Shown piece after piece: positions 5,583 through 19,373 of a stretch of 64,000 bases of DNA. Position numbers and translations under genes: made by a program. The DNA comes from an uncultured Clostridia bacterium (lineage in GTDB: Bacteria; Bacillota; Clostridia; Christensenellales; Aristaeellaceae), in NCBI GenBank assembly GCA_947631405.1, contig CANRLC010000005.1, forward strand, positions 1 to 64,000, in the 5' to 3' direction. The notes under the pieces were generated by a model. That model made no database searches. It was given only the letters and a program-made list of their open reading frames with translations, and was not told where the DNA came from. Position 1 is the stretch's first letter. Each line of letters begins with the position of its first letter.

Positions 5583-7115
5583 ATGTCGCCAGAATATATC
5601 GTCGTCCAGGCGGGCGGCAGGGGAAGCAGGCTCGGCCGCCTCACCGAGAACAAGCCTAAAGCGCTTGTTCCAGTAGACAACCTTCCGATGCTGTTTCACC
5701 TGTTTCGTCAGTTTCCAGACAAGCGATTCATCATCGTCTCCGATTATCAATCGGACGTCATGCGAAAGTATTTGAACGCTTTCGCTGACGTCCGGTTTTT
5801 GGTCGTGGAGGTGCATGGCGCGCACGGAACATGCGCGGGGCTGCACAAAGCGTTGTCGAAGATTCCGGACGGCGAAGCGTTCATGTTGATTTGGTCTGAC
5901 CTGGTGTTGCCGCCCGACTTTGAATTGCCGAGGTCAAACGGGAACTATATCGGTCTGTCAAAGGGATTCCCTTGCCGGTGGCGCTATCAAAACGGGTGCT
6001 TTGAAGAGACAGAGTCGCGCGAGACGGGTGTGGCAGGCCTTTTCATATTTGAGGACAATCGCTTCTTGAAGGAAGTGCCGGAAGAAGGAGAGTTTGTCCG
6101 TTGGTTAAAGGGGCAAGAGCTTGCATTCAAACCTCTCTCGTTGGAACGGACGCACGAATACGGTCTGCTGTCCGTAGTCGAAAATGCAGAGGAAGCCGTT
6201 GCTGGGTATCGATGCCGCCCGTTTAACCGAATTGAGATCAGCGAGGACGGCAAGCGTCTTACGAAAATTGGCGTCGATGCGCAGGGACAGGCCTTAGCGG
6301 AGAGAGAGAAGCAATGGTATCAATTTGTCGAGGCAAAGGGGTATCCGCATATCCCGCGCATCTACGGCTACGAGCCGTTTGTCATGCAGCGAATCAAGGG
6401 CAAAAATATATTCGCTTACAATCTGAACAGATCGCAAAAAGAAGCGGTGCTGAAAAAGCTGATCGAGAGCCTGAGAACGCTCCACGGCTTGGGCGACGCC
6501 CCGACGGACTGGTTCAGCGTACACGACGCCTATATTGGCAAAACGTGGAGGCGGCTGGATAAAATCCGTGATCTTGTGCCGTTCGCGGATCGAGAATATA
6601 TCGTCGTCAACGGAAAGCGTTGTAGAAACGTATTTTACCATAAAGATCAGATTGAACGGATGTTTGAGCGCTGCGCTTGCGAGAAATTTGTGTTTCTTCA
6701 CGGAGACGCAACCTTCTCAAACCTGATCTTGAATGAGAAAATGGATCCAGTGTTGATTGATCCGCGAGGGTATTTTGGGTACACGACGTTTTACGGCGAT
6801 CCTTCCTACGATTGGGCGAAGCTGTATTATTCGATCGTGGGGAATTATGACCAGTTTAACCAAAAGCGCTTTCGCTTGAAAATCCAGCAGGAGAGCGTCG
6901 AACTATCCATTCAGTCAAACGGTTGGGAGGACATGGAGGCGCTGTTCTTCTCCCTTTTAGGTGGCGAAGTGGACAGAAGATATATTCGGTTGCTCCATGC
7001 GATCATTTGGCTATCGCTGACTACCTATGCGTGGGAAGACTACGACTCGATTTGCGGTGCGTTCTACAACGGTCTATATTACCTTGAAGACATTTTGGCT
7101 TTAGGAGAATGGTAA
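5583..7115 (+). CDS. Nucleotidyltransferase-phosphotransferase (APH-like kinase) fusion
   Basis: Two enzymes in one chain of 510 aa. Residues 1 to about 225 are a sugar nucleotidyltransferase domain with the glycine-rich loop VVQAGGRGSRLG and the KPKALVPV segment. The C-terminal half is an APH/choline-kinase-fold phosphotransferase: the catalytic HGDATFSN motif begins at about residue 373 and the metal-binding Asp is in LIDPRG at about 392. ATG 5583 has an AGCGAGGG site 11 bases upstream and directly precedes the conserved fold. The stop codon overlaps the next start (TAATG). With the SIS and HAD genes it looks like a kinase plus nucleotidyltransferase for sugar activation. The LicA/LicC pair of choline activation is the main alternative. 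Confidence 0.75.
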   Translation: MSPEYIVVQAGGRGSRLGRLTENKPKALVPVDNLPMLFHLFRQFPDKRFIIVSDYQSDVMRKYLNAFADVRFLVVEVHGAHGTCAGLHKALSKIPDGEAFMLIWSDLVLPPDFELPRSNGNYIGLSKGFPCRWRYQNGCFEETESRETGVAGLFIFEDNRFLKEVPEEGEFVRWLKGQELAFKPLSLERTHEYGLLSVVENAEEAVAGYRCRPFNRIEISEDGKRLTKIGVDAQGQALAEREKQWYQFVEAKGYPHIPRIYGYEPFVMQRIKGKNIFAYNLNRSQKEAVLKKLIESLRTLHGLGDAPTDWFSVHDAYIGKTWRRLDKIRDLVPFADREYIVVNGKRCRNVFYHKDQIERMFERCACEKFVFLHGDATFSNLILNEKMDPVLIDPRGYFGYTTFYGDPSYDWAKLYYSIVGNYDQFNQKRFRLKIQQESVELSIQSNGWEDMEALFFSLLGGEVDRRYIRLLHAIIWLSLTTYAWEDYDSICGAFYNGLYYLEDILALGEW

Positions 7116-7699
7116 TGGAGCAGTATTTTGAAAACACAGTCCGGATATTGAGCGATTCAATACACAGCATTGACGTCCGGGAATTTGGAGCGCTCGTTGA
7201 CGCTTGCGAGCTTACGCTGCGCGCAGGCGGGCGGATTGTCGCTTCGGGGCTGGGAAAAAATGTGCCTGTTTGTGAAAAGTTTGTGGGCGCAATGGTTTCG
7301 CTCGGGATGGAAGCCAATTTTATGCACACCAATTCCGCCGTCCACGGGGATTTGGGTATGGTGCGCAAAGGGGATCTCGTCATCGTTTTAAGCAAAAGCG
7401 GCACCACGGCGGAGACGGTATATCTGGTGAATCTGCTGCAGGAGCGCGGATGTGAAATCTGGCCGTTGACGTTTAACCGCGACTGCGCGATTGTGCGGGA
7501 AATCGGCCATTGTGTTGCGCTTTCCCTCGAGCACGAGGGAGACCCGTGGAACATATTGCCGAATCATTCTACAGTTCTGAATCTTGTGGTGTTACAGACG
7601 CTCGCTATGACGCTGGCGAAGAGAATGAACATCCGTTTGGAGGACTTTCGGGCAAATCATCCGGGCGGGGCGATCGGCGCCCGGTTGAAGGAAAGGTGA
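7115..7699 (+). CDS. SIS-domain sugar-phosphate isomerase (KdsD/GutQ/KpsF-like)
   Basis: Single SIS domain of 194 aa, lacking the CBS pair of full-length KdsD. The motifs GLGKNV, HGDLGM, LSKSGTTAE and C-terminal NHPGGAIGARL match the D-arabinose-5-phosphate isomerase group rather than GmhA. The likely reaction is ribulose-5-phosphate to arabinose-5-phosphate. ATG 7115 is preferred over 7109 because AGGAG (7103-7107) then lies 7 bases away, and the start overlaps the upstream stop, pointing to translational coupling. No KDO synthesis genes are visible, so the product probably feeds the fusion kinase next door. Confidence 0.75.
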   Translation: MEQYFENTVRILSDSIHSIDVREFGALVDACELTLRAGGRIVASGLGKNVPVCEKFVGAMVSLGMEANFMHTNSAVHGDLGMVRKGDLVIVLSKSGTTAETVYLVNLLQERGCEIWPLTFNRDCAIVREIGHCVALSLEHEGDPWNILPNHSTVLNLVVLQTLAMTLAKRMNIRLEDFRANHPGGAIGARLKER

Positions 7700-7704
7700 T
7701 TTCC

Positions 7705-8115
7705 ATGATTTTGACCGACGAGGGCCTGAATCTTGCGCTGTCGAGGCTGCCGCATACATGGATTCTCGATTTGGACGGCACACTTGTAAAGCACAACGGC
7801 TATAAGACGGATGGTGCGGATTCCTTTCTGGAAGGCGCAAAGGAATTCCTCATGAGCATCGATGAAAAAGATATGATCATTCTTCTGACTTCACGCGGGG
7901 AGGACGTTCGTGCGGAAACGGAAGCCTTCCTGCACGCGCATCAGATTCGGTTCGACGCAATCCTATATAACGTGCCCTACGGTGAGCGCATTGTGATCAA
8001 CGATGATAAGCCGTCTGGCCTTGGAACAGCGGTAGCGATACGGAAGGCGCGAGACGCTGCGCTGTATATTCAGGCGTCCATCGATGAAGCCCGCGCAATG
8101 CAAAGAGAGCTGTAG
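7705..8115 (+). CDS. HAD-like phosphatase of capsule-cluster type
   Basis: Small HAD-superfamily protein of 136 aa. Motif I is DLDGTL with the nucleophile at about D22 and general acid at about D24. Motif II is in LLTSR, and the acidic motif near the end is NDDKPSG. No large cap domain is present, as in other small glycan-cluster phosphatases. ATG 7705 is chosen because GAAAGGTG precedes it and the fold starts here; the longer open frame from 7510 overlaps the SIS gene. It would remove the phosphate left after kinase action, in the way GmhB does in heptose pathways. Confidence 0.75.
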   Translation: MILTDEGLNLALSRLPHTWILDLDGTLVKHNGYKTDGADSFLEGAKEFLMSIDEKDMIILLTSRGEDVRAETEAFLHAHQIRFDAILYNVPYGERIVINDDKPSGLGTAVAIRKARDAALYIQASIDEARAMQREL

Positions 8116-8157
8116 TCGGACTGGAAAAACGTCGGTGTAAGCGAGAGGACGTGTACG

Positions 8158-9144
8158 ATGAGCGATTACTTGAAATATAACGGACTTAAGAAAACCGTGC
8201 GCAACCGAATTAAGACATGGGGTGGCGCATGGTGGGGCGCGTGGATTTTTGCAAAGCTGCTGCGCCGGAACAAGCACACCCATTATGTGGTGGTTCCCCC
8301 CGGCATAGGCGATACGATATGCGCGCTGGCTTTTCTGCGGGCATATAGGGAGAAAGAGAAGCTCTCCCATGTCACGCTTGTGGGCGGCGCCAATACGACC
8401 AAGCAGCTTTGCGCCTTCTATGGCGATTTGGTTGATGACCTCATCATCCTGAGCAGGAACGCAGATTTAAGCCTGCTGTATTTCCCGGGAACCTACTTTG
8501 GACAATGGCTCTGCGCGTACAGTTGCCGGCCTAGAATTACAATCGCCCATTATCTCTGCAATATTCCGCAGCGAAACGTATGGGACAACTCATATTTCTG
8601 CCTGCAGGATTTCATCAAATGCATGTCCTATCAAATCGGCCCTGACGCACTGCCGGAACATCCGCATGTTCCACAGGTGGACGTGAGCAAACTCATACGC
8701 AGATACGGTGTTGAAAAGGACAAGACCGTCTTCCTCAATCCATACGCAAACGCGGTGAAATTGGATGTAAAGAACCTGTTTAAGCATATCGCGGAAGCGC
8801 TGATCGAGAGGGGCTATCGCGTTCTTACCCTTACAGCGCATGAAGCGCAGCATCCCGTTGAGGGCACGCAGGCGCTGCTTTGCGATCTAAGCGAAGCCTT
8901 TCGGCTGGCGGAGTATGGCGGAACCCTCATCGGGCTGCGGAGCGGCTTTTTAGACCTGATGGTTTTTGCAAAGTGCAGAATGATTCCAATCGACGACGAT
9001 GCTTATGGCAGAAAAGAGTTTTTTAAGCTAGAAAAGTGGGGCGTCAACAAGGACTGCCATACCGTTACATACAAAACAGAGGAGCAAGCGCTTGCAGAAA
9101 TCCTAGAAAAAATGGAGATATTCGCGGGAGGCGAGAGTTGTTGA
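8158..9144 (+). CDS. Glycosyltransferase family 9-like (heptosyltransferase-like) protein
   Basis: A 328-aa protein with a GT-B-like layout. The early VVVPPGIGDTICALAF motif is typical of ADP-heptose:LPS heptosyltransferase relatives. A second Rossmann-like half starts near VFLNPYANAVK, with a C-terminal donor-site region around GGTLIGLRSGF. AGAGGA lies about 10 bases before ATG. It sits straight after the nucleotidyltransferase-kinase, SIS and HAD genes, so it is the best candidate to use the sugar nucleotide they make. Gram-positive GT9-like proteins are poorly characterised; donor and acceptor are unknown. Confidence 0.65.
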   Translation: MSDYLKYNGLKKTVRNRIKTWGGAWWGAWIFAKLLRRNKHTHYVVVPPGIGDTICALAFLRAYREKEKLSHVTLVGGANTTKQLCAFYGDLVDDLIILSRNADLSLLYFPGTYFGQWLCAYSCRPRITIAHYLCNIPQRNVWDNSYFCLQDFIKCMSYQIGPDALPEHPHVPQVDVSKLIRRYGVEKDKTVFLNPYANAVKLDVKNLFKHIAEALIERGYRVLTLTAHEAQHPVEGTQALLCDLSEAFRLAEYGGTLIGLRSGFLDLMVFAKCRMIPIDDDAYGRKEFFKLEKWGVNKDCHTVTYKTEEQALAEILEKMEIFAGGESC

Positions 9145-11928: not shown

Positions 11929-12783
11929 ATGGAAGACTTGCGAAAGCTGCAGCTCAAAGAACTGGAGATCCTAGAACGATTCAAAAAGATTTGTGCGGAA
12001 CATAACCTCATCTATTATCTTACCTTTGGTACGCTTCTTGGGGCAGTCAGGCACAAGGGATTTATCCCTTGGGATGATGATATTGATGTGATGATGCCGA
12101 TCCGCGATATGGAAAAGCTGGAGCAGATCTATCAGGAGGAGAAATGGCCGGGGCTTTTTTTGCAGACGCCCAATACGGAACCGCAGGCGGGCCTGACCTA
12201 TTACAAATTGCGCTTGGATGGAACAACTCTATTGGTAGATCGAATGATCGACAAAGATATTCACCATGGTATCGATATTGATATCTATCCATTGTATAAC
12301 GCGCCGGAAAATCGCATTTTGTGGATGTTCCAATATGGTGTGGCGTTGCTCTATATGCTGCTGCAAACGGAAGAGCCTCCAATAAACCATGGGAAAGCGA
12401 TACAATGGGCCTCCAATATGGTTCTTGCTGTGTGCAAAGGCAGATTGCGCAAAGCGGTTCGAGACTTTTGCTATCGGTATATGGCGAAGTACGAAGGGCG
12501 CCAAACGCCCTATAAAGCGATCCTGAGCTGCAATCCGCATTATGCAAAACCGCGATATCCAATTTCTGTATTCGGTACTACAGCGACCTTGCCTTTTGAA
12601 GGAAAAGATTTCAGCGTTCCGCAGGATTGCGATACATGGTTGAAACTGAAATATGGTAATTATCAAACGCTTCCACCACAAAATGAGCAGGGTAACAAAT
12701 TAGAACACATTCTGAAATTGGATCTCGAACATTCCTATCTTGATTATAGGGGTATCTATTATTTGCGGAAGGATACCGAGTAA
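11929..12783 (+). CDS. LicD-family phosphotransferase
   Basis: LicD/fukutin-like protein of 284 aa. The family core is visible: YYLTFGTLLGAVRH followed by IPWDDDIDVMMP, where the acidic cluster binds metal. LicD proteins transfer phosphocholine or similar groups from a CDP or CMP carrier to sugars. AAAGGAG lies about 8 bases before ATG. It directly precedes the radical SAM, cytidylyltransferase and PEP mutase genes, so it is the most likely transferase for a CMP-activated phosphonate. Choline or another polyol phosphate cannot be excluded. Confidence 0.85.
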   Translation: MEDLRKLQLKELEILERFKKICAEHNLIYYLTFGTLLGAVRHKGFIPWDDDIDVMMPIRDMEKLEQIYQEEKWPGLFLQTPNTEPQAGLTYYKLRLDGTTLLVDRMIDKDIHHGIDIDIYPLYNAPENRILWMFQYGVALLYMLLQTEEPPINHGKAIQWASNMVLAVCKGRLRKAVRDFCYRYMAKYEGRQTPYKAILSCNPHYAKPRYPISVFGTTATLPFEGKDFSVPQDCDTWLKLKYGNYQTLPPQNEQGNKLEHILKLDLEHSYLDYRGIYYLRKDTE

Positions 12784-13863: not shown

Positions 13864-14289
13864 ATGGCGCAGGAAAATCTGGTCTATGTGCCGATGGCGG
13901 CGGATATCGTCCACCCCGGGCATATCAACATCATCCGGATTGCGGCTCAGTACGGCAGAGTGATGGTCGGACTGTTTACCGATGAGGCGATCGCCTCGTA
14001 TAAACGTGTGCCATATATGCCCTATGAACAGCGTAAGGCCGTCATTGAGAACATCAAGGGCGTGAGCGAGGTTGTGCCGCAGCTGACGCGTGATTACGCA
14101 GATAATTTGAAAAAGTATAAGCCCAGATACATGGTGCATGGAACGGACTGGCGCGAAGGCCCACTGGCAGACGTGCGCGCCAAGGCGATCGCCCTGATAG
14201 CCGAGTGGGGCGGCGAGATCATCGAGCCGGAATACACGCAGGGCGTTTCGTCCTCGATGATCCAGCAAAAAATACGCGATAGAGGTTGA
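13864..14289 (+). CDS. Cytidylyltransferase-like protein (TagD family)
   Basis: A 141-aa nucleotidyltransferase of the HxGH type. The nucleotide-binding motif is HPGH in DIVHPGHINII, and the end carries SSSMIQQKI, corresponding to the ISSTxI signature of glycerol-3-phosphate cytidylyltransferases. It is clearly related along its length to the N-terminal domain of the next protein, so the two form a tandem pair. Substrate could be a phosphonate or a small phospho-alcohol that becomes CMP- or CDP-linked for LicD. Start follows GAGGCGAG directly. Confidence 0.8.
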   Translation: MAQENLVYVPMAADIVHPGHINIIRIAAQYGRVMVGLFTDEAIASYKRVPYMPYEQRKAVIENIKGVSEVVPQLTRDYADNLKKYKPRYMVHGTDWREGPLADVRAKAIALIAEWGGEIIEPEYTQGVSSSMIQQKIRDRG

Positions 14290-14293
14290 AGCA

Positions 14294-15601
14294 TTGAGTA
14301 ATCAAGAGAAGACCGTTTACACCTGCTTTTGCACGGACGTTATCCACGAAGGGCATTTGAACATCCTCCGCGAGGCGCAAAAGCTGGGGCGCGTGACGGT
14401 GGGCGTGCTGAGCGATGAAGCGGTCATCCGCTACAATCGCTTTTTTACGATTGACTTTGCGGAGCGCTTTAAGCTCGCACAGCGCTTGCCGGGTGTGGCC
14501 AACGTGGTCGTGCAGCGCGACATTCACTATGACGATGTGATCCGGAAGCTGAAACCGGATTATGTGGTGCATGGGGACAACTGGCTGACGGGGCCGATGC
14601 GAGCGATACGAGACAACGTCGAGAAGCTGGTCGGCGAGTACGGCGGTCAGGTCGTGGATATTCCCTATACATATAGCGAAGAAGTCAAGCGCATCGACGA
14701 CCGAAAGCGAGAGACGCTGGCAATGCCGGAGTATCGTCGGGGACGGCTGCGCAAGCTGATCCGCCTGTGTCCGATCGTCAAGACGCTGGAGGTGCATAGC
14801 GGTCTGACGGGGTTAATCGCAGAAAAGACCGTGGTGGAGCACAACGGCGAGCTGGATCAATTCGACGCGATGTGGATCAGCTCGCTATGCGATTCCACAG
14901 CAAAGGGAAAGCCGGACATTGAACTGGTAGACATGACATCGCGCTTTAGAACGATTGACGACGTGATGGAGGTCACCACCAAGCCCATCATCTTCGACGG
15001 AGATACAGGCGGGCTGATCGAGCATTTTGTGTATACGGTGCGCTCTCTAGAACGGATGGGTGTGTCGGCGGTCATCATCGAGGACAAGACGGGACTGAAG
15101 AAAAACTCGCTCTTCGGCACTGAGGTCGAGCAGACGCAGGACACCATCGAGCATTTCTGCCAGAAGATCCATGCCGGGAAAAAGGTGCAGCTCACGGACG
15201 ACTTCATGATTATCGCCCGCATCGAAAGCCTGATTCTGGAAAAGGGCATGGAAGATGCGCTGGAGCGTGCGAAGGCGTATGTCGAGGCGGGCGCGGATGC
15301 GATCATGATCCACAGCAGGCGCAAGGAGCCGACGGAGATTCTCGCGTTCTGCGACCGCTTTCGTCAGACGGACGCGCGGACGCCGATCGTCGTCGTTCCG
15401 TCGTCGTTCAATTCGGTGACGGAGGATGAACTGCGCCAGCATGGGGTCAACATCGTCATTTATGCCAATCAACTGACGCGAAGCGCTTTTCCGGCGATGC
15501 AACAGACAGCCAAGGACATTCTGCGCTATCATCGCGCACTCGAAGTGGACGACAGGCTGATGCCGATCAAGCAGATATTGACGTTGATCGACGAGCTTTA
15601 G
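14294..15601 (+). CDS. Cytidylyltransferase-PEP mutase fusion (Fom1-like)
   Basis: A 435-aa bifunctional protein. Residues 1 to about 130 are a cytidylyltransferase-like domain with HEGH (DVIHEGHLNIL). From about 155 to the end is phosphoenolpyruvate mutase of the isocitrate-lyase fold, with the catalytic loop EDKTGLKKNS at about 263-272 and an early D-x-D region FDGDTGG. The mutase makes the C-P bond by converting PEP to phosphonopyruvate. The same order occurs in Fom1 of Streptomyces fosfomycin synthesis, where the N-terminal domain loads CMP on hydroxyethylphosphonate. Start is TTG with AGAGG 8 bases upstream. Confidence 0.85.
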   Translation: MSNQEKTVYTCFCTDVIHEGHLNILREAQKLGRVTVGVLSDEAVIRYNRFFTIDFAERFKLAQRLPGVANVVVQRDIHYDDVIRKLKPDYVVHGDNWLTGPMRAIRDNVEKLVGEYGGQVVDIPYTYSEEVKRIDDRKRETLAMPEYRRGRLRKLIRLCPIVKTLEVHSGLTGLIAEKTVVEHNGELDQFDAMWISSLCDSTAKGKPDIELVDMTSRFRTIDDVMEVTTKPIIFDGDTGGLIEHFVYTVRSLERMGVSAVIIEDKTGLKKNSLFGTEVEQTQDTIEHFCQKIHAGKKVQLTDDFMIIARIESLILEKGMEDALERAKAYVEAGADAIMIHSRRKEPTEILAFCDRFRQTDARTPIVVVPSSFNSVTEDELRQHGVNIVIYANQLTRSAFPAMQQTAKDILRYHRALEVDDRLMPIKQILTLIDEL

Positions 15602-15610
15602 GAGAAAAGG

Positions 15611-16762
15611 ATGAACGTTAAAAACCTGCTGAAGATCATCGGCGCGGACTTCTACGCCGGAGTACCGGACAGCCAGCTACGCGCCCTGTGCGACTACTTG
15701 ATGTCAGCCTATGGCATCGACCCCAAACATCACGTCATCGCGGCGAACGAGGGCAACGCCGTCGGCTTGGCCGCGGGGTATCACCTTGCCACGGGCAAGG
15801 TGCCAGCCGCCTACATGCAGAATAGCGGCATCGGCAACGCGGTCAACCCGATCGCGTCTCTGATGAACGACAAGGTATACGGCATCCCGTGTGTGTTCAT
15901 CGTGGGTTGGCGCGGCGAGCCGGGCGTGCATGACGAACCGCAGCACGTCTTTCAGGGGGAGATCACGCTCAAACTGCTGGAGGACTTGGACATCCAGACG
16001 TTCGTCCTCAGCAAGGAGACGACAATAGAGGAGCTGCAAGCCGCGATGGACGGCTTCCACCCGCTGCTGGCGTCGGGCAAGCAGGTCGCCGTCGTCGTGC
16101 GCAAGGGCGCGCTGACGTTTGACGGCGAGGTCGCCTACCGCAATGAGTATGAAATGACCCGCGAGGAGGCGATCCGCCGCATTGCGCGCACAGCAGACGA
16201 GGATGTGATTGTCTCGACGACGGGCAAGGCGAGCCGCGAGCTGTTCGAGATCCGTGAGGGGAACGGCGAAGGACACGCGCACGACTTTTTGACGGTCGGC
16301 TCGATGGGGCATAGCTCGTCCATCGCGCTGGGGATCGCGGCGCAGCGACCGGGGCGGCGCCTCTGGGTGATTGACGGGGACGGCGCGGCGCTGATGCACA
16401 TGGGCGCGATGGCGGTGCTGGGCGCGAATCGGCCCGCGAACATGGTGCATATCATCATCAACAACATGGCGCACGAGACGGTGGGCGGGATGCCGACGAT
16501 CGCAGGGAAGATCGACCTGCCCGCGATCGCGACGGCCTGCGGCTATCCGCATGCGCTGCTTGTATCGACAGTTGTCGAACTAGACGCGGCGCTCGCGGCG
16601 GCAAAGTCAGCGAACGAACTGACGCTGATCGAGGTGCGGTGCGCGATCGGCGCGCGGACCGACTTGGGCCGCCCGACTACGACTCCGCAAGAGAATAAGC
16701 GGGCGCTGATGGAGGAACTGGGCGTGGGCGAGAATGCAAAAAACTGCTATGGGACTATGTGA
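15611..16762 (+). CDS. Phosphonopyruvate decarboxylase
   Basis: ThDP-dependent decarboxylase of 383 aa that pulls the unfavourable PEP mutase reaction forward by making phosphonoacetaldehyde. The N-terminal half holds ANEGNAVGLAAGYHL, with the ThDP-activating Glu. The C-terminal half holds the ThDP-binding motif GDGAALMHMGA ending near IINN. It starts 9 bases after the PEP mutase stop, so the two are co-translated. No transaminase (PhnW/AepZ) or dedicated reductase follows. The last about 10 residues read into a decayed glf fragment in another frame, so the original C-terminus may have been slightly shorter or different. Confidence 0.88.
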   Translation: MNVKNLLKIIGADFYAGVPDSQLRALCDYLMSAYGIDPKHHVIAANEGNAVGLAAGYHLATGKVPAAYMQNSGIGNAVNPIASLMNDKVYGIPCVFIVGWRGEPGVHDEPQHVFQGEITLKLLEDLDIQTFVLSKETTIEELQAAMDGFHPLLASGKQVAVVVRKGALTFDGEVAYRNEYEMTREEAIRRIARTADEDVIVSTTGKASRELFEIREGNGEGHAHDFLTVGSMGHSSSIALGIAAQRPGRRLWVIDGDGAALMHMGAMAVLGANRPANMVHIIINNMAHETVGGMPTIAGKIDLPAIATACGYPHALLVSTVVELDAALAAAKSANELTLIEVRCAIGARTDLGRPTTTPQENKRALMEELGVGENAKNCYGTM

Positions 16763-16932: not shown

Positions 16933-17413
16933 TCTTTGCATTGAGTCCATTTTTATACATTTTAATATAACATAAGTAATGCAATTTTTGCTTGTATGAA
17001 CAGACTTCGTGCCACTGTAATTTGTTTCTGTTTTTTATGAAGGTTGCTTTTTGCTTTGATCGGAGAGAAACTCAAAGCTGTAGGTTTGTCAAACCTCTTG
17101 GACAGAGAAGTTTGAGAGAAAGCCTCTGGGGGATGCTCGTCGAATAGGACGCATAGGGCGGCGGTGTGAATGGGGAAATTTGTGCTTTTCTCAGAGCTGT
17201 TGTATAATGTGAATGCGCTCCGAGAGCATCGCGAGGGCAGGATGGTCAAGAGGCGAAAAACGATATAAGAATTTGAAATATAAAAAATAGAGAGTCGGCA
17301 TATCAACTCCCTCGGGGTTCAGGAATAGTCCCCATATGCTGGCATTACCCCCGATCCACGATCAGTATATTCAATTTCACATGAATTGTCAAGTGGAGAA
17401 GAAGTTAAATCGC
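16933..17413. other. Non-coding stretch including the probable CRISPR leader
   Basis: No convincing gene. An antisense frame (16962-17306) has no motif and odd composition. The last 100-150 bases are AT-rich and lie directly 5' of the first repeat in repeat orientation, so they are the likely leader. No cas2 remnant was recognised. Confidence 0.5.
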
Positions 17414-17853
17414 GTCGCACCCCGCAAGGGACGCGTGGATTGAAATGAGGACGGCGTGCTGGAGGCCTACGAGATCATTGGTCGCACCCCGCGAGGGGTG
17501 CATGGGTTGAAATAACGCGGCGGAGCACCAGCACTTTGTGACCACCAAATCGCACCCCGCGAGGGGTGCGTGGGTTTGAAATGACATCACCGAGGGCGCG
17601 CGGGGGATCACCGATCTGGTCGCACCCCGCGAGGGGTGCGTGGGTTGAAATGCGTGAAAGACCGCCGGATAGATGATCTCGCTCATGTCGCACCCCGCAA
17701 GGGGCGTGTGGGTTGAAATTGCATTAGTACATCGCCGATGTATTTCTCGTTTTGGTCGCACCTCGCAAGGGGTGCGAGGGTTGAAATATGTCGCCAACCT
17801 CGCATTACGATAAAGAGCGGGTCGCACCCCGCAAGGGGTGCGTGGATTGAAAT
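17414..17853 (+). CRISPR. CRISPR array, type I-C-like repeats, 7 repeats and 6 spacers
   Basis: Seven repeats of 33 bp (one of 34) start at 17414, 17481, 17549, 17619, 17687, 17755 and 17821. They begin GTCGCACCCCGC and end TGGGTTGAAAT or TGGATTGAAAT, the usual form for type I-C systems. Spacers are 33-36 bp and all different. Repeats vary at several positions (GCAAGG/GCGAGG, GGATT/GGGTT), and repeat 3 has an extra T and starts with A. The terminal GAAAT places the leader to the left. A degenerate eighth repeat may begin at 17888, after a 34-base spacer-like gap. No cas gene is present in the window. Confidence 0.93.
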
Positions 17854-18050
17854 GTGCAGTCGTCGCAGACATAAGCCTTGTCGCCCTGTCGCGCCTTGCC
17901 CTGCGTTGGAGCCAAAAAAAGACGCCCGTTTTTCGAGCACCCGCCTGCCGAATTTGCGTTAGGAGATATGCGCGCGAATCCGGAGATGAATCTGAGAAGC
18001 ATCCATTTTCCTGTGCGCGATATGAATAGGCGTCGGCATCCGGATTCTTC

Positions 18051-18233: not shown

Positions 18234-18504
18234 TGTCAATCAAGATCTCCCTTAACTCTCCGGGCAAACTCCCTCTAGGCAAATACCCTTCGCCGGACGG
18301 ATACCCTTCGCCAGACGAATACCCTTCGCCGGACAAATAACCCTCGCGTTGCAGCTTTTCAATGAGTGCTTGGCGCACTACGGCCGTCTCGCTTATGCCC
18401 TGCTTTTTTGCAACCTTTGATACAGCCGTAGGAATACCGCTTTTATTTGTTACACGCAATAAATACTGGACAGTATTCTTTTTCTTCCATTCTACATTAG
18501 ACAA
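18208..18504 (-). CDS. RHH-like antitoxin-type protein with hexapeptide repeats (copy 1)
   Basis: A 98-aa protein. Residues about 5-55 (KKNTVQYLLRVTNKSG, then VAKKQGISETAVVRQALIEKLQ) resemble a ribbon-helix-helix or CopG/Arc-type DNA-binding region. The middle contains tandem SGEGYx hexapeptides encoded by an 18-bp repeat. Start is probably TTG 18504, with GGGAGGTG upstream. It overlaps the downstream DUF2281-like frame by 26 bases. Nearly identical to the gene at 18767. An antitoxin role is inferred only from size, pairing and the RHH-like pattern; no toxin is recognised. Confidence 0.6.
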   Translation of the reverse strand: MSNVEWKKKNTVQYLLRVTNKSGIPTAVSKVAKKQGISETAVVRQALIEKLQREGYLSGEGYSSGEGYPSGEGYLPRGSLPGELREILIDNDYIRKNL

Positions 18505-18603
18505 CTTACAGCACCTCCCGCCACAAGAACAATACCCAGTATGCTCTCTGATGGATTATGTTCTTCTCTCGCCCCATTCAAAAAACCATAGCCGCGCCTT
18601 GTT

Positions 18604-18792
18604 TCATTCGCACTTCGCTAACGCCTTGAACGCCGGCAGATTTTCCTCAACGATGGTGCGAATATCCTCCATCACTTCCGCATCTTCCTGCTTCTGCTTT
18701 TCCACCAGAAAGAGCGTGTAATCGAGAATTTCCCGCTGCACATTTTCCGGCAAATTCCGCGCCGCATTATAGATTTTCTCGGATATAGTCAT
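18604..18792 (-). CDS. DUF2281-like small protein (copy 2)
   Basis: A 62-aa protein, MTISEKIYNAARNLPEN at its start, then VQREILDYTLFLVEKQKQ and an acidic C-terminus. The LPENVQREILDYTLFL pattern matches DUF2281 and related antitoxin-like small proteins, which often sit beside toxins. GGGAGA is upstream of ATG, and the gene begins inside the 3' end of the RHH-like gene at 18767, so the two are coupled. Function is unproven. Confidence 0.6.
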   Translation of the reverse strand: MTISEKIYNAARNLPENVQREILDYTLFLVEKQKQEDAEVMEDIRTIVEENLPAFKALAKCE

Positions 18793-19072
18793 TGTCGATC
18801 AAGATCTCCCTTAACTCTCTGGGCAAACTCCCTCTAGGCAAATACCCTTCGCCGGACGGATACCCTTCGCCAGACAAATAACCCTCGCGTTGCAGCTTTT
18901 CAATGAGTGCTTGGCGCACTACGGCCGTCTCGCTTATGCCCTGCTTTTTTGCAGCCTTTGATACAGCCGTAGGAATACCGCTTTTATTTGTTACACGCAA
19001 TAAATACTGAACAGTATTCTTTTTCTTCCATTTGTCATTGTAAGCTTTCATTTTTTCCATATCTCTAGGCAT
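18767..19072 (-). CDS. RHH-like antitoxin-type protein with hexapeptide repeats (copy 2)
   Basis: A 101-aa near-duplicate of the protein at 18208, with an N-terminal extension (MPRDMEKMKAYNDK) and fewer SGEGYP-type hexapeptides. GGGAGG lies upstream of ATG 19072. The 26-base overlap with the following DUF2281-like gene is kept. Identity with copy 1 extends into the flanking non-coding DNA, showing a recent tandem duplication of about 560 bp rather than independent acquisition. Confidence 0.6.
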   Translation of the reverse strand: MPRDMEKMKAYNDKWKKKNTVQYLLRVTNKSGIPTAVSKAAKKQGISETAVVRQALIEKLQREGYLSGEGYPSGEGYLPRGSLPRELREILIDNDYIRENL

Positions 19073-19171
19073 ATTTGCGTACCTCCCGCCACAAGAACAA
19101 TATCCAGTATTCGCTCTGATGGATTATGTTCTTCTCTCGTCCCATTCAAAAAACCATAGCCGCGCCCTGTT

Positions 19172-19360
19172 TCATTTGCACTTCGCTAACGCCTTAAACG
19201 CCGGCAGATTTTCTTCAACAATGGCGCGAATATCCTCCATCACTTCCGCATCTTCCTGCTTCTGCTTTTCCGCCAGAAAGAGCGTGTAATCGAGAATTTC
19301 CTGCTGCACATCCTCCGGCAAAGCCCGCGCCGCATGATAGATTTTCTCGGAAATGGTCAT
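19172..19360 (-). CDS. DUF2281-like small protein (copy 3, first in the series)
   Basis: A 62-aa protein starting MTISEKIYHAARALPED, closely related to the copy at 18604 and to the disrupted copy at 18051. GGAGG lies about 12 bases before ATG 19360. Its upstream partner (19374-19600) is a diverged RHH-like frame. Probably the oldest member of the amplified series, since its partner is the most different. Confidence 0.6.
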   Translation of the reverse strand: MTISEKIYHAARALPEDVQQEILDYTLFLAEKQKQEDAEVMEDIRAIVEENLPAFKALAKCK

Positions 19361-19373
19361 TGTCGATCTAATC

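Follow-up and report, generated by a model that had tools for sequence, protein, structure and literature searches.

Which sugar is activated by a set of genes that follows the logic of heptose activation with enzymes from other families? The question is raised by a polysaccharide locus in the first 64,000 nt of contig CANRLC010000005.1 from an uncultured Clostridia bacterium (hereafter the window), in which a gene for a nucleotidyltransferase (NTase) fused to an APH-fold kinase is followed by genes for a SIS isomerase, a small phosphatase of the HAD family, and a glycosyltransferase remotely resembling GT9 (5583-9144). We consider it likely that the first three genes, here called the trio, specify a cytosolic pathway to nucleotide-activated D-arabinose for a surface polysaccharide, with transfer by the GT9-like protein.

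The enzyme families and their intact motifs, a conserved gene unit with recurrent fusions, co-occurrence of the genes across genomes, and a homologous trio in an arabinosylating phage are observed; what this pathway acts on, the order of its steps, the ring form, the nucleotide, and the acceptor are predictions. The isomerase would convert D-ribulose-5-phosphate to D-arabinose-5-phosphate (A5P), the APH domain would phosphorylate A5P at C1 to give D-arabinose-1,5-bisphosphate, the HAD would remove the 5-phosphate to leave D-arabinose-1-phosphate, and the NTase domain would join this to a nucleotide, yielding nucleoside diphosphate (NDP)-arabinose as the donor from which the GT9-like neighbor would transfer arabinose. 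With its 5-hydroxyl blocked, A5P can form only a furanose ring, so that NDP-D-arabinofuranose is the probable product.

A Conserved Gene Cassette

All four genes lie on the forward strand. The first (5583..7115, 510 aa) encodes a bifunctional NTP-sugar nucleotidyltransferase/APH-fold kinase, with the NTase at approximately residues 1-200 and the kinase at approximately residues 210-505. Its stop codon is overlapped by one base by the start of the isomerase gene (7115..7699, 194 aa; predicted D-arabinose-5-phosphate isomerase), followed by the genes for the small capless HAD phosphatase (7705..8115, 136 aa; predicted arabinose-1,5-bisphosphate 5-phosphatase) and the cassette-linked glycosyltransferase (8158..9144, 328 aa; predicted arabinosyltransferase). 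An earlier note on this DNA (the original prediction) had named the same four genes, and they are confirmed at these exact coordinates. Its wording needs amending on two counts: the fusion comes first, then the isomerase, phosphatase, and transferase, and what it called a kinase fused to a nucleotidyltransferase has the NTase at the N-terminus and the kinase at the C-terminus.

The trio is a genuine conserved unit, far from a chance arrangement: searching the genome collection with the fusion gave 408 relatives, with conserved neighbors and gene fusions. The best 80 of the 408, which were fetched, come mainly from Bacillota, with some from Treponema, Bacteroides, and Mailhella. Cultured carriers of the fusion include Brevibacillus fulvus DSM 25523, Paenibacillus oralis KCOM 3021, and Robertmurraya massiliosenegalensis JC6. 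Across 85 loci of fusion relatives, a SIS isomerase is present in 76 and a HAD phosphatase in 73, and all three genes are contiguous in the order of the window in 52. The NTase, kinase, and SIS are joined in a single polypeptide in 8 of the 85, and the SIS is fused to the HAD in one. When 341 genomes of the class were compared, the same five proved to have the fusion, the HAD, and the cassette-type SIS, the SIS giving five matches at ∼1e-85 or better and the next at 1.7e-34. Four of these five cassette-bearing genomes, and none of the other 336, also have a member of the transferase family.

Enzyme Families and Active Sites

The fusion matches Pfam NTP_transf_3 (1.5e-10) and APH (1.5e-12). Motifs invariant over 70 homologs (GGxGxR..PK, D106, HGDxTFxN, and DPRGYFG) include the signature of pyrophosphorylases and the catalytic motifs of the kinase, which are kept in all 70 sequences, and the AlphaFold2 (AF2) model has a pLDDT of 93.3. 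The best PDB match of the N-terminal domain in Foldseek is MurU, the matches listed for the fusion covering the NTase domain only. The partner of MurU is AmgK, whose APH-fold kinase activity is directed at the anomeric carbon, and AmgK, NahK, and methylthioribose kinase are all APH-fold anomeric sugar kinases. The original prediction treated the APH fold as unusual for this role, which it is not; as AmgK illustrates, an APH protein can well be a kinase for C1 of a sugar.

The isomerase scores 1.4e-33 against the KpsF/GutQ model TIGR00393 and 1.1e-27 against the KdsD model. The TIGR00393 score of 116.6 bits is below the cut-off of 203.7, the match being limited to the SIS half of a protein without the C-terminal CBS domains. 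All 58 isomerases compared (the window protein and 57 aligned relatives) match the KpsF/KdsD/GutQ models, and none of the 58 matches a GmhA model. K48, H77, E141, and H182 are invariant in this set and E100 is at least 90% conserved; these correspond to KdsD K59, H88, E152, H193, and E111, which we take to be the catalytic residues. Most of the window protein can be aligned with arabinose-5-phosphate isomerases of solved structure. At the level of family, these results support the assignment to the arabinose-5-phosphate type already made in the original prediction.

The HAD protein gives only weak family matches in profile searches. Residues D22xD24G25, T62, R64, D100, and K102 are invariant in 48 homologs, and these catalytic motifs are accompanied by an AF2 model with a pLDDT of 94.4. 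Foldseek returned no match below 0.001 for this protein, and its matches to PNKP were taken to reflect a common fold and no more.

Searches of Pfam, NCBIfam, and the PDB gave no match for the transferase, and none of 14 members of its family matches Pfam Glyco_transf_9 at E up to 0.1. Profile comparison of the family with GT9 by hhalign gives a probability of 95.7 (E 8.9e-9, 237 columns), with unrelated controls reaching at most 0.6. The GT9-like transferase of the original prediction thus holds as a remote, profile-level homolog of GT9. No relative was found in 50,697 phage records and no PHROG match was obtained. Restricted as it is to the cassette, the family is a specific candidate for arabinosyltransferases of a new family.

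Identity of the Sugar

Three lines point to A5P as the compound handled by the cassette, namely a KpsF in a Planktothrix cluster, an isomerase located elsewhere in the genome in relatives whose cassette has none, and, the strongest, a link with phages. Full-length relatives of the fusion occur in 355 phage records, 339 of them with at least 80% of its length, and 271 records contain relatives of the isomerase. In phages RB69 and HY126 there is a trio in the order A5P isomerase, NTase-kinase, HAD (in RB69, ORF055c, ORF053_052c, and p051). The phage fusions and isomerases belong to the same families as those of the window: the window fusion matches phrog_4098 at 1.2e-60 over residues 6-505 (hhalign, 99.9% over 466 columns), and the isomerase matches phrog_5670, arabinose 5-phosphate isomerase, at 1e-28. 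Full-length identity of the fusion is 27-28% to the T4-like phages and 34% to cyanophage S-SRM01, and that of the isomerase to phage isomerases is ∼27-33%. The phage branches in the NTase-kinase tree are very long and the position of the phages in it is unreliable.

The DNA of RB69 contains arabinose, and the proteins of its trio were proposed in 2018 for the synthesis of UDP-arabinose (PMC6024577). The HY126 HAD, which shares 99% identity with its RB69 counterpart, is PDB 9iqw, titled “D-arabinose 1,5-diphosphate phosphatase AfhF” by its depositors. A comparable trio is absent from the corresponding place in T4, a phage with glucosylated DNA, where a beta-glucosyltransferase is encoded instead. 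All three genes are contiguous in S-SRM01, and the HAD adjoining its NTase-kinase is 52% identical to that of the window. The S-SRM01 trio (NC_070963.1, 191.6-202 kb) clusters with two nucleotide-sugar epimerases and several glycosyltransferases, and its sugar use may differ from that of T4-like phages. The original prediction knew of no described pathway of this kind, which has to be revised in view of the 2018 phage proposal and of diverged bacterial homologs with a C-terminal SIS domain already noticed in Butyrivibrio (PMC6024577). The phage sugar-donor pathway was still called uncharacterized in 2026 (PMC13390438).

A plasmid of Planktothrix agardhii encodes a fusion (40.6% identical) and a HAD without the small SIS, and in the same cluster a full-length KpsF that scores above the curated cut-off. 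No KdsA (Kdo-8-phosphate synthase; Kdo, 3-deoxy-D-manno-octulosonate) was found on this plasmid or in phage HY126. The cluster (strain NIES-204, AP017992.1, ∼40-71 kb), which joins the arabinose-activation genes and KpsF to genes for an amidinotransferase, sulfotransferases, TauD dioxygenases, a P450, a carbamoyltransferase, and glycosyltransferases, possibly makes an arabinosylated natural product. With the phage trio of a virus that has arabinose in its DNA and the title given to AfhF, the Planktothrix KpsF strengthens the core of the original prediction, a heptose-style logic applied to a pentose with entry at A5P and a 1,5-bisphosphate intermediate.

Genomes in which the cassette is incomplete, or in which related pathways are also encoded, are informative as well. 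In some Bacillota whose cassette has no isomerase, one is encoded at another place: in G726 it is of the cassette type and lies on a different contig, and in G727 it is a more distant KpsF-type protein. G726 additionally has, in a locus of their own, genes for GmhA-like and HddA-like proteins and an NTase-HAD fusion, and G734 carries a complete kdsB-kdsA-kdsD-kdsC operon besides the cassette (both read from sequence). Since these Kdo and heptose-type genes stand apart from it, the cassette belongs to neither pathway. Synthesis of Kdo was ruled out on this ground and on the lack of KdsA in the Planktothrix plasmid and HY126; the KdsA-model match in the source genome of the window scores 107 bits against a cut-off of 314 and was not taken as KdsA.

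Several observations weigh against A5P and the proposed steps. The segment after E141 of the isomerase reads EGDxWNIxPNN, compared with EACPLGLAPT in the KdsD type, and this change could reflect a shift in the ketose substrate. The window HAD is distant from phage AfhF (24% identity, a weak Foldseek match to 9iqw, and a match at 3.6e-7 to phrog_1238), and hhalign with the single AfhF sequence is not significant. Two loci (L023 and L048) have the fusion and the HAD, and a KpsF-type SIS was not found in their genomes, a context that suggests another source of substrate; nor did we find any carrier whose glycan structure is known. The two loci are sister fusion genes whose neighbors encode a GT-family protein and radical SAM-SPASM and Sel1-repeat proteins.

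Alternative Routes and Substrates

The main alternative keeps the sugar and changes the order of the steps, with the HAD acting first on A5P to release free D-arabinose, which the APH domain would phosphorylate at C1 and the NTase domain convert to NDP-D-arabinopyranose. A precedent exists in trypanosomatids, where free D-arabinose is converted to GDP-D-arabinopyranose by a kinase-pyrophosphorylase polypeptide and a D-arabinose-5-phosphate phosphatase has been postulated (PMC11301363). We regard this order as unlikely, given that the depositors' title for the phage phosphatase names the 1,5-diphosphate as its substrate and that free arabinose would be an untrapped intermediate.

Less likely still is a different aldopentose or a modified pentose (NDP-ribose or NDP-xylose, for example), which would require that the isomerase has changed its specificity and that further tailoring follows. 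The motif after E141, unlike that of KdsD, and the two epimerases beside the S-SRM01 trio speak for this reading, against which stand the canonical KpsF used by Planktothrix and the rarity of epimerase genes near the bacterial cassettes: proteins of the GDP_Man_Dehyd/Epimerase-type cluster are nearby in 9 of the 85 loci, and no epimerase is a frequent close neighbor.

A true heptose pathway, in which recruited enzymes would convert sedoheptulose-7-phosphate to NDP-heptose, shares the three-step logic and a remotely GT9-like transferase with the cassette, and the NTase domain is weakly similar to the heptose enzyme HddC in the model search. The absence of any GmhA match and the separate heptose-type locus of G726, a genome that also has a cassette-type SIS, led us to rule it out as highly improbable, and the phage relatives are moreover associated with arabinose. 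Activation of choline, ethanolamine, or another nonsugar in the manner of LicCA, with an isomerase unrelated to the substrate of the fusion, is hinted at by the weak likeness of the NTase domain to LicC (PDB 1jyk) and by a LicD gene in the window locus, but is the least credible reading of all and was thought unlikely given that the kinase matches Pfam APH and no choline-kinase family, that repeated NTase-kinase-SIS fusions tie the isomerase to the pathway of the fusion, and that LicD is present in only 10 of the 85 loci.

Other Features of the Window

The LicD-family phosphotransferase (11929..12783, forward strand; Pfam LicD 3e-39) belongs to the same polysaccharide locus and lies outside the trio. 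It is followed by a phosphonate module (13864-16762) consisting of a cytidylyltransferase-like protein, a cytidylyltransferase-PEP mutase fusion, and a phosphonopyruvate decarboxylase, with matches to TIGR02320 (7e-126) and TIGR03297 (2e-141). The glycan of this locus is probably decorated with phosphonate. PEP mutase and the cassette also occur together in two relatives (L069 and L080). Near the cassette in 28 of the 85 loci, often beside the GT9-like gene, is a conserved family of 120-260 aa proteins (for example, L025:9442-9963); the example scanned had no Pfam match.

Directly 3' of the polysaccharide locus is a CRISPR-like array (17408-17854) of seven rather degenerate repeats (78-100%) of ∼33 nt resembling GTCGCACCCCGCGAGGGGTGCGTGGGTTGAAAT, spaced 66-70 nt apart. 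Between this array and the next operon are long direct repeats (18301-19365), comprising three copies of a 300-nt unit (61-100% alike) and two of a 198-nt unit.

Significance of the Proposed Pathway

D-Arabinofuranose in bacterial glycans has so far been explained by epimerization of lipid-linked ribose (PMC11127046), and a 2024 paper that lists how prokaryotes arrive at D-arabinose includes no soluble, nucleotide-activated route starting at A5P (PMC11301363). Our literature search found no account of the bacterial version as a glycan pathway. Most likely, the trio represents a route otherwise known only from DNA-arabinosylating phages that is widespread but unrecognized in gut bacteria. More tentatively, we propose that gut Bacillota and members of several other phyla make NDP-D-arabinofuranose in the cytosol, with C1 phosphorylation locking the furanose, and use it for surface glycans with a dedicated and undescribed GT9-like family, and that a diverged form of this pathway operates in T4-like arabinosylating phages.

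If true, pentofuranose glycans could be built without phosphoribosyl pyrophosphate (PRPP), lipid-linked epimerization, or a mutase. Such a route, if widespread, would predict arabinose in many uncharacterized capsules of gut bacteria, supply an enzyme set for the synthesis of NDP-D-arabinose in vitro, and bear on the origin of the sugar donor of arabinosylating phages.

Comparison with Known Systems

The ADP- and GDP-heptose pathways (GmhA, HldE or HddA/HddC, GmhB, and GT9) share with the cassette the sequence of isomerase, C1 kinase, phosphatase, and NTase and a remotely GT9-like transferase. They differ in their components, the trio having a KpsF-type rather than a GmhA-type isomerase, an APH kinase rather than one of the PfkB (HldE) or GHMP (HddA) type, and an NTase and a HAD of other families. 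KdsD, KpsF, and GutQ, which catalyze the first step toward Kdo, have the family and catalytic residues of the window isomerase, which differs in lacking CBS domains and in being coupled to sugar activation rather than to KdsA. The AmgK-MurU pair of MurNAc recycling combines an anomeric APH-fold kinase with a MobA-like NTase, as does the fusion; AmgK and MurU are separate proteins that act on an N-acetylated hexose without an isomerase or a phosphatase.

The domains of the trypanosomatid arabino/fuco-kinase-pyrophosphorylase are unrelated to those of the fusion. Both are single polypeptides, the fusion being predicted to yield NDP-D-arabinose as the trypanosomatid enzyme does; the latter differs in that it starts from free D-arabinose and gives the pyranose (PMC11301363). 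The decaprenyl- or undecaprenyl-linked pentofuranose routes (DprE1/E2 and three-component systems) are bacterial and lead to glycans containing arabinofuranose (PMC11127046), as the cassette is predicted to do, but they start from PRPP and epimerize the sugar on a lipid carrier, whereas the cassette pathway would be soluble and NDP-linked.

Closest is the phage module of RB69 and HY126, which has the same three functions and in which two of the three enzymes, the fusion and the isomerase, are homologous to those of the window. It differs in gene order, the isomerase coming first in the phages and 3' of the fusion in the window, and in its phosphatase, since the window HAD is divergent from the AfhF type (the HAD of S-SRM01 being the exception). 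The phage genes sit in a DNA-modification locus and the window trio in a polysaccharide locus, where it is accompanied by a GT9-like transferase that has no phage relative, and bacterial versions sometimes fuse the isomerase to the NTase-kinase. The trio is thus best seen as the counterpart, for bacterial glycans, of the phage DNA-arabinosylation module, a route that is well supported and not unprecedented.

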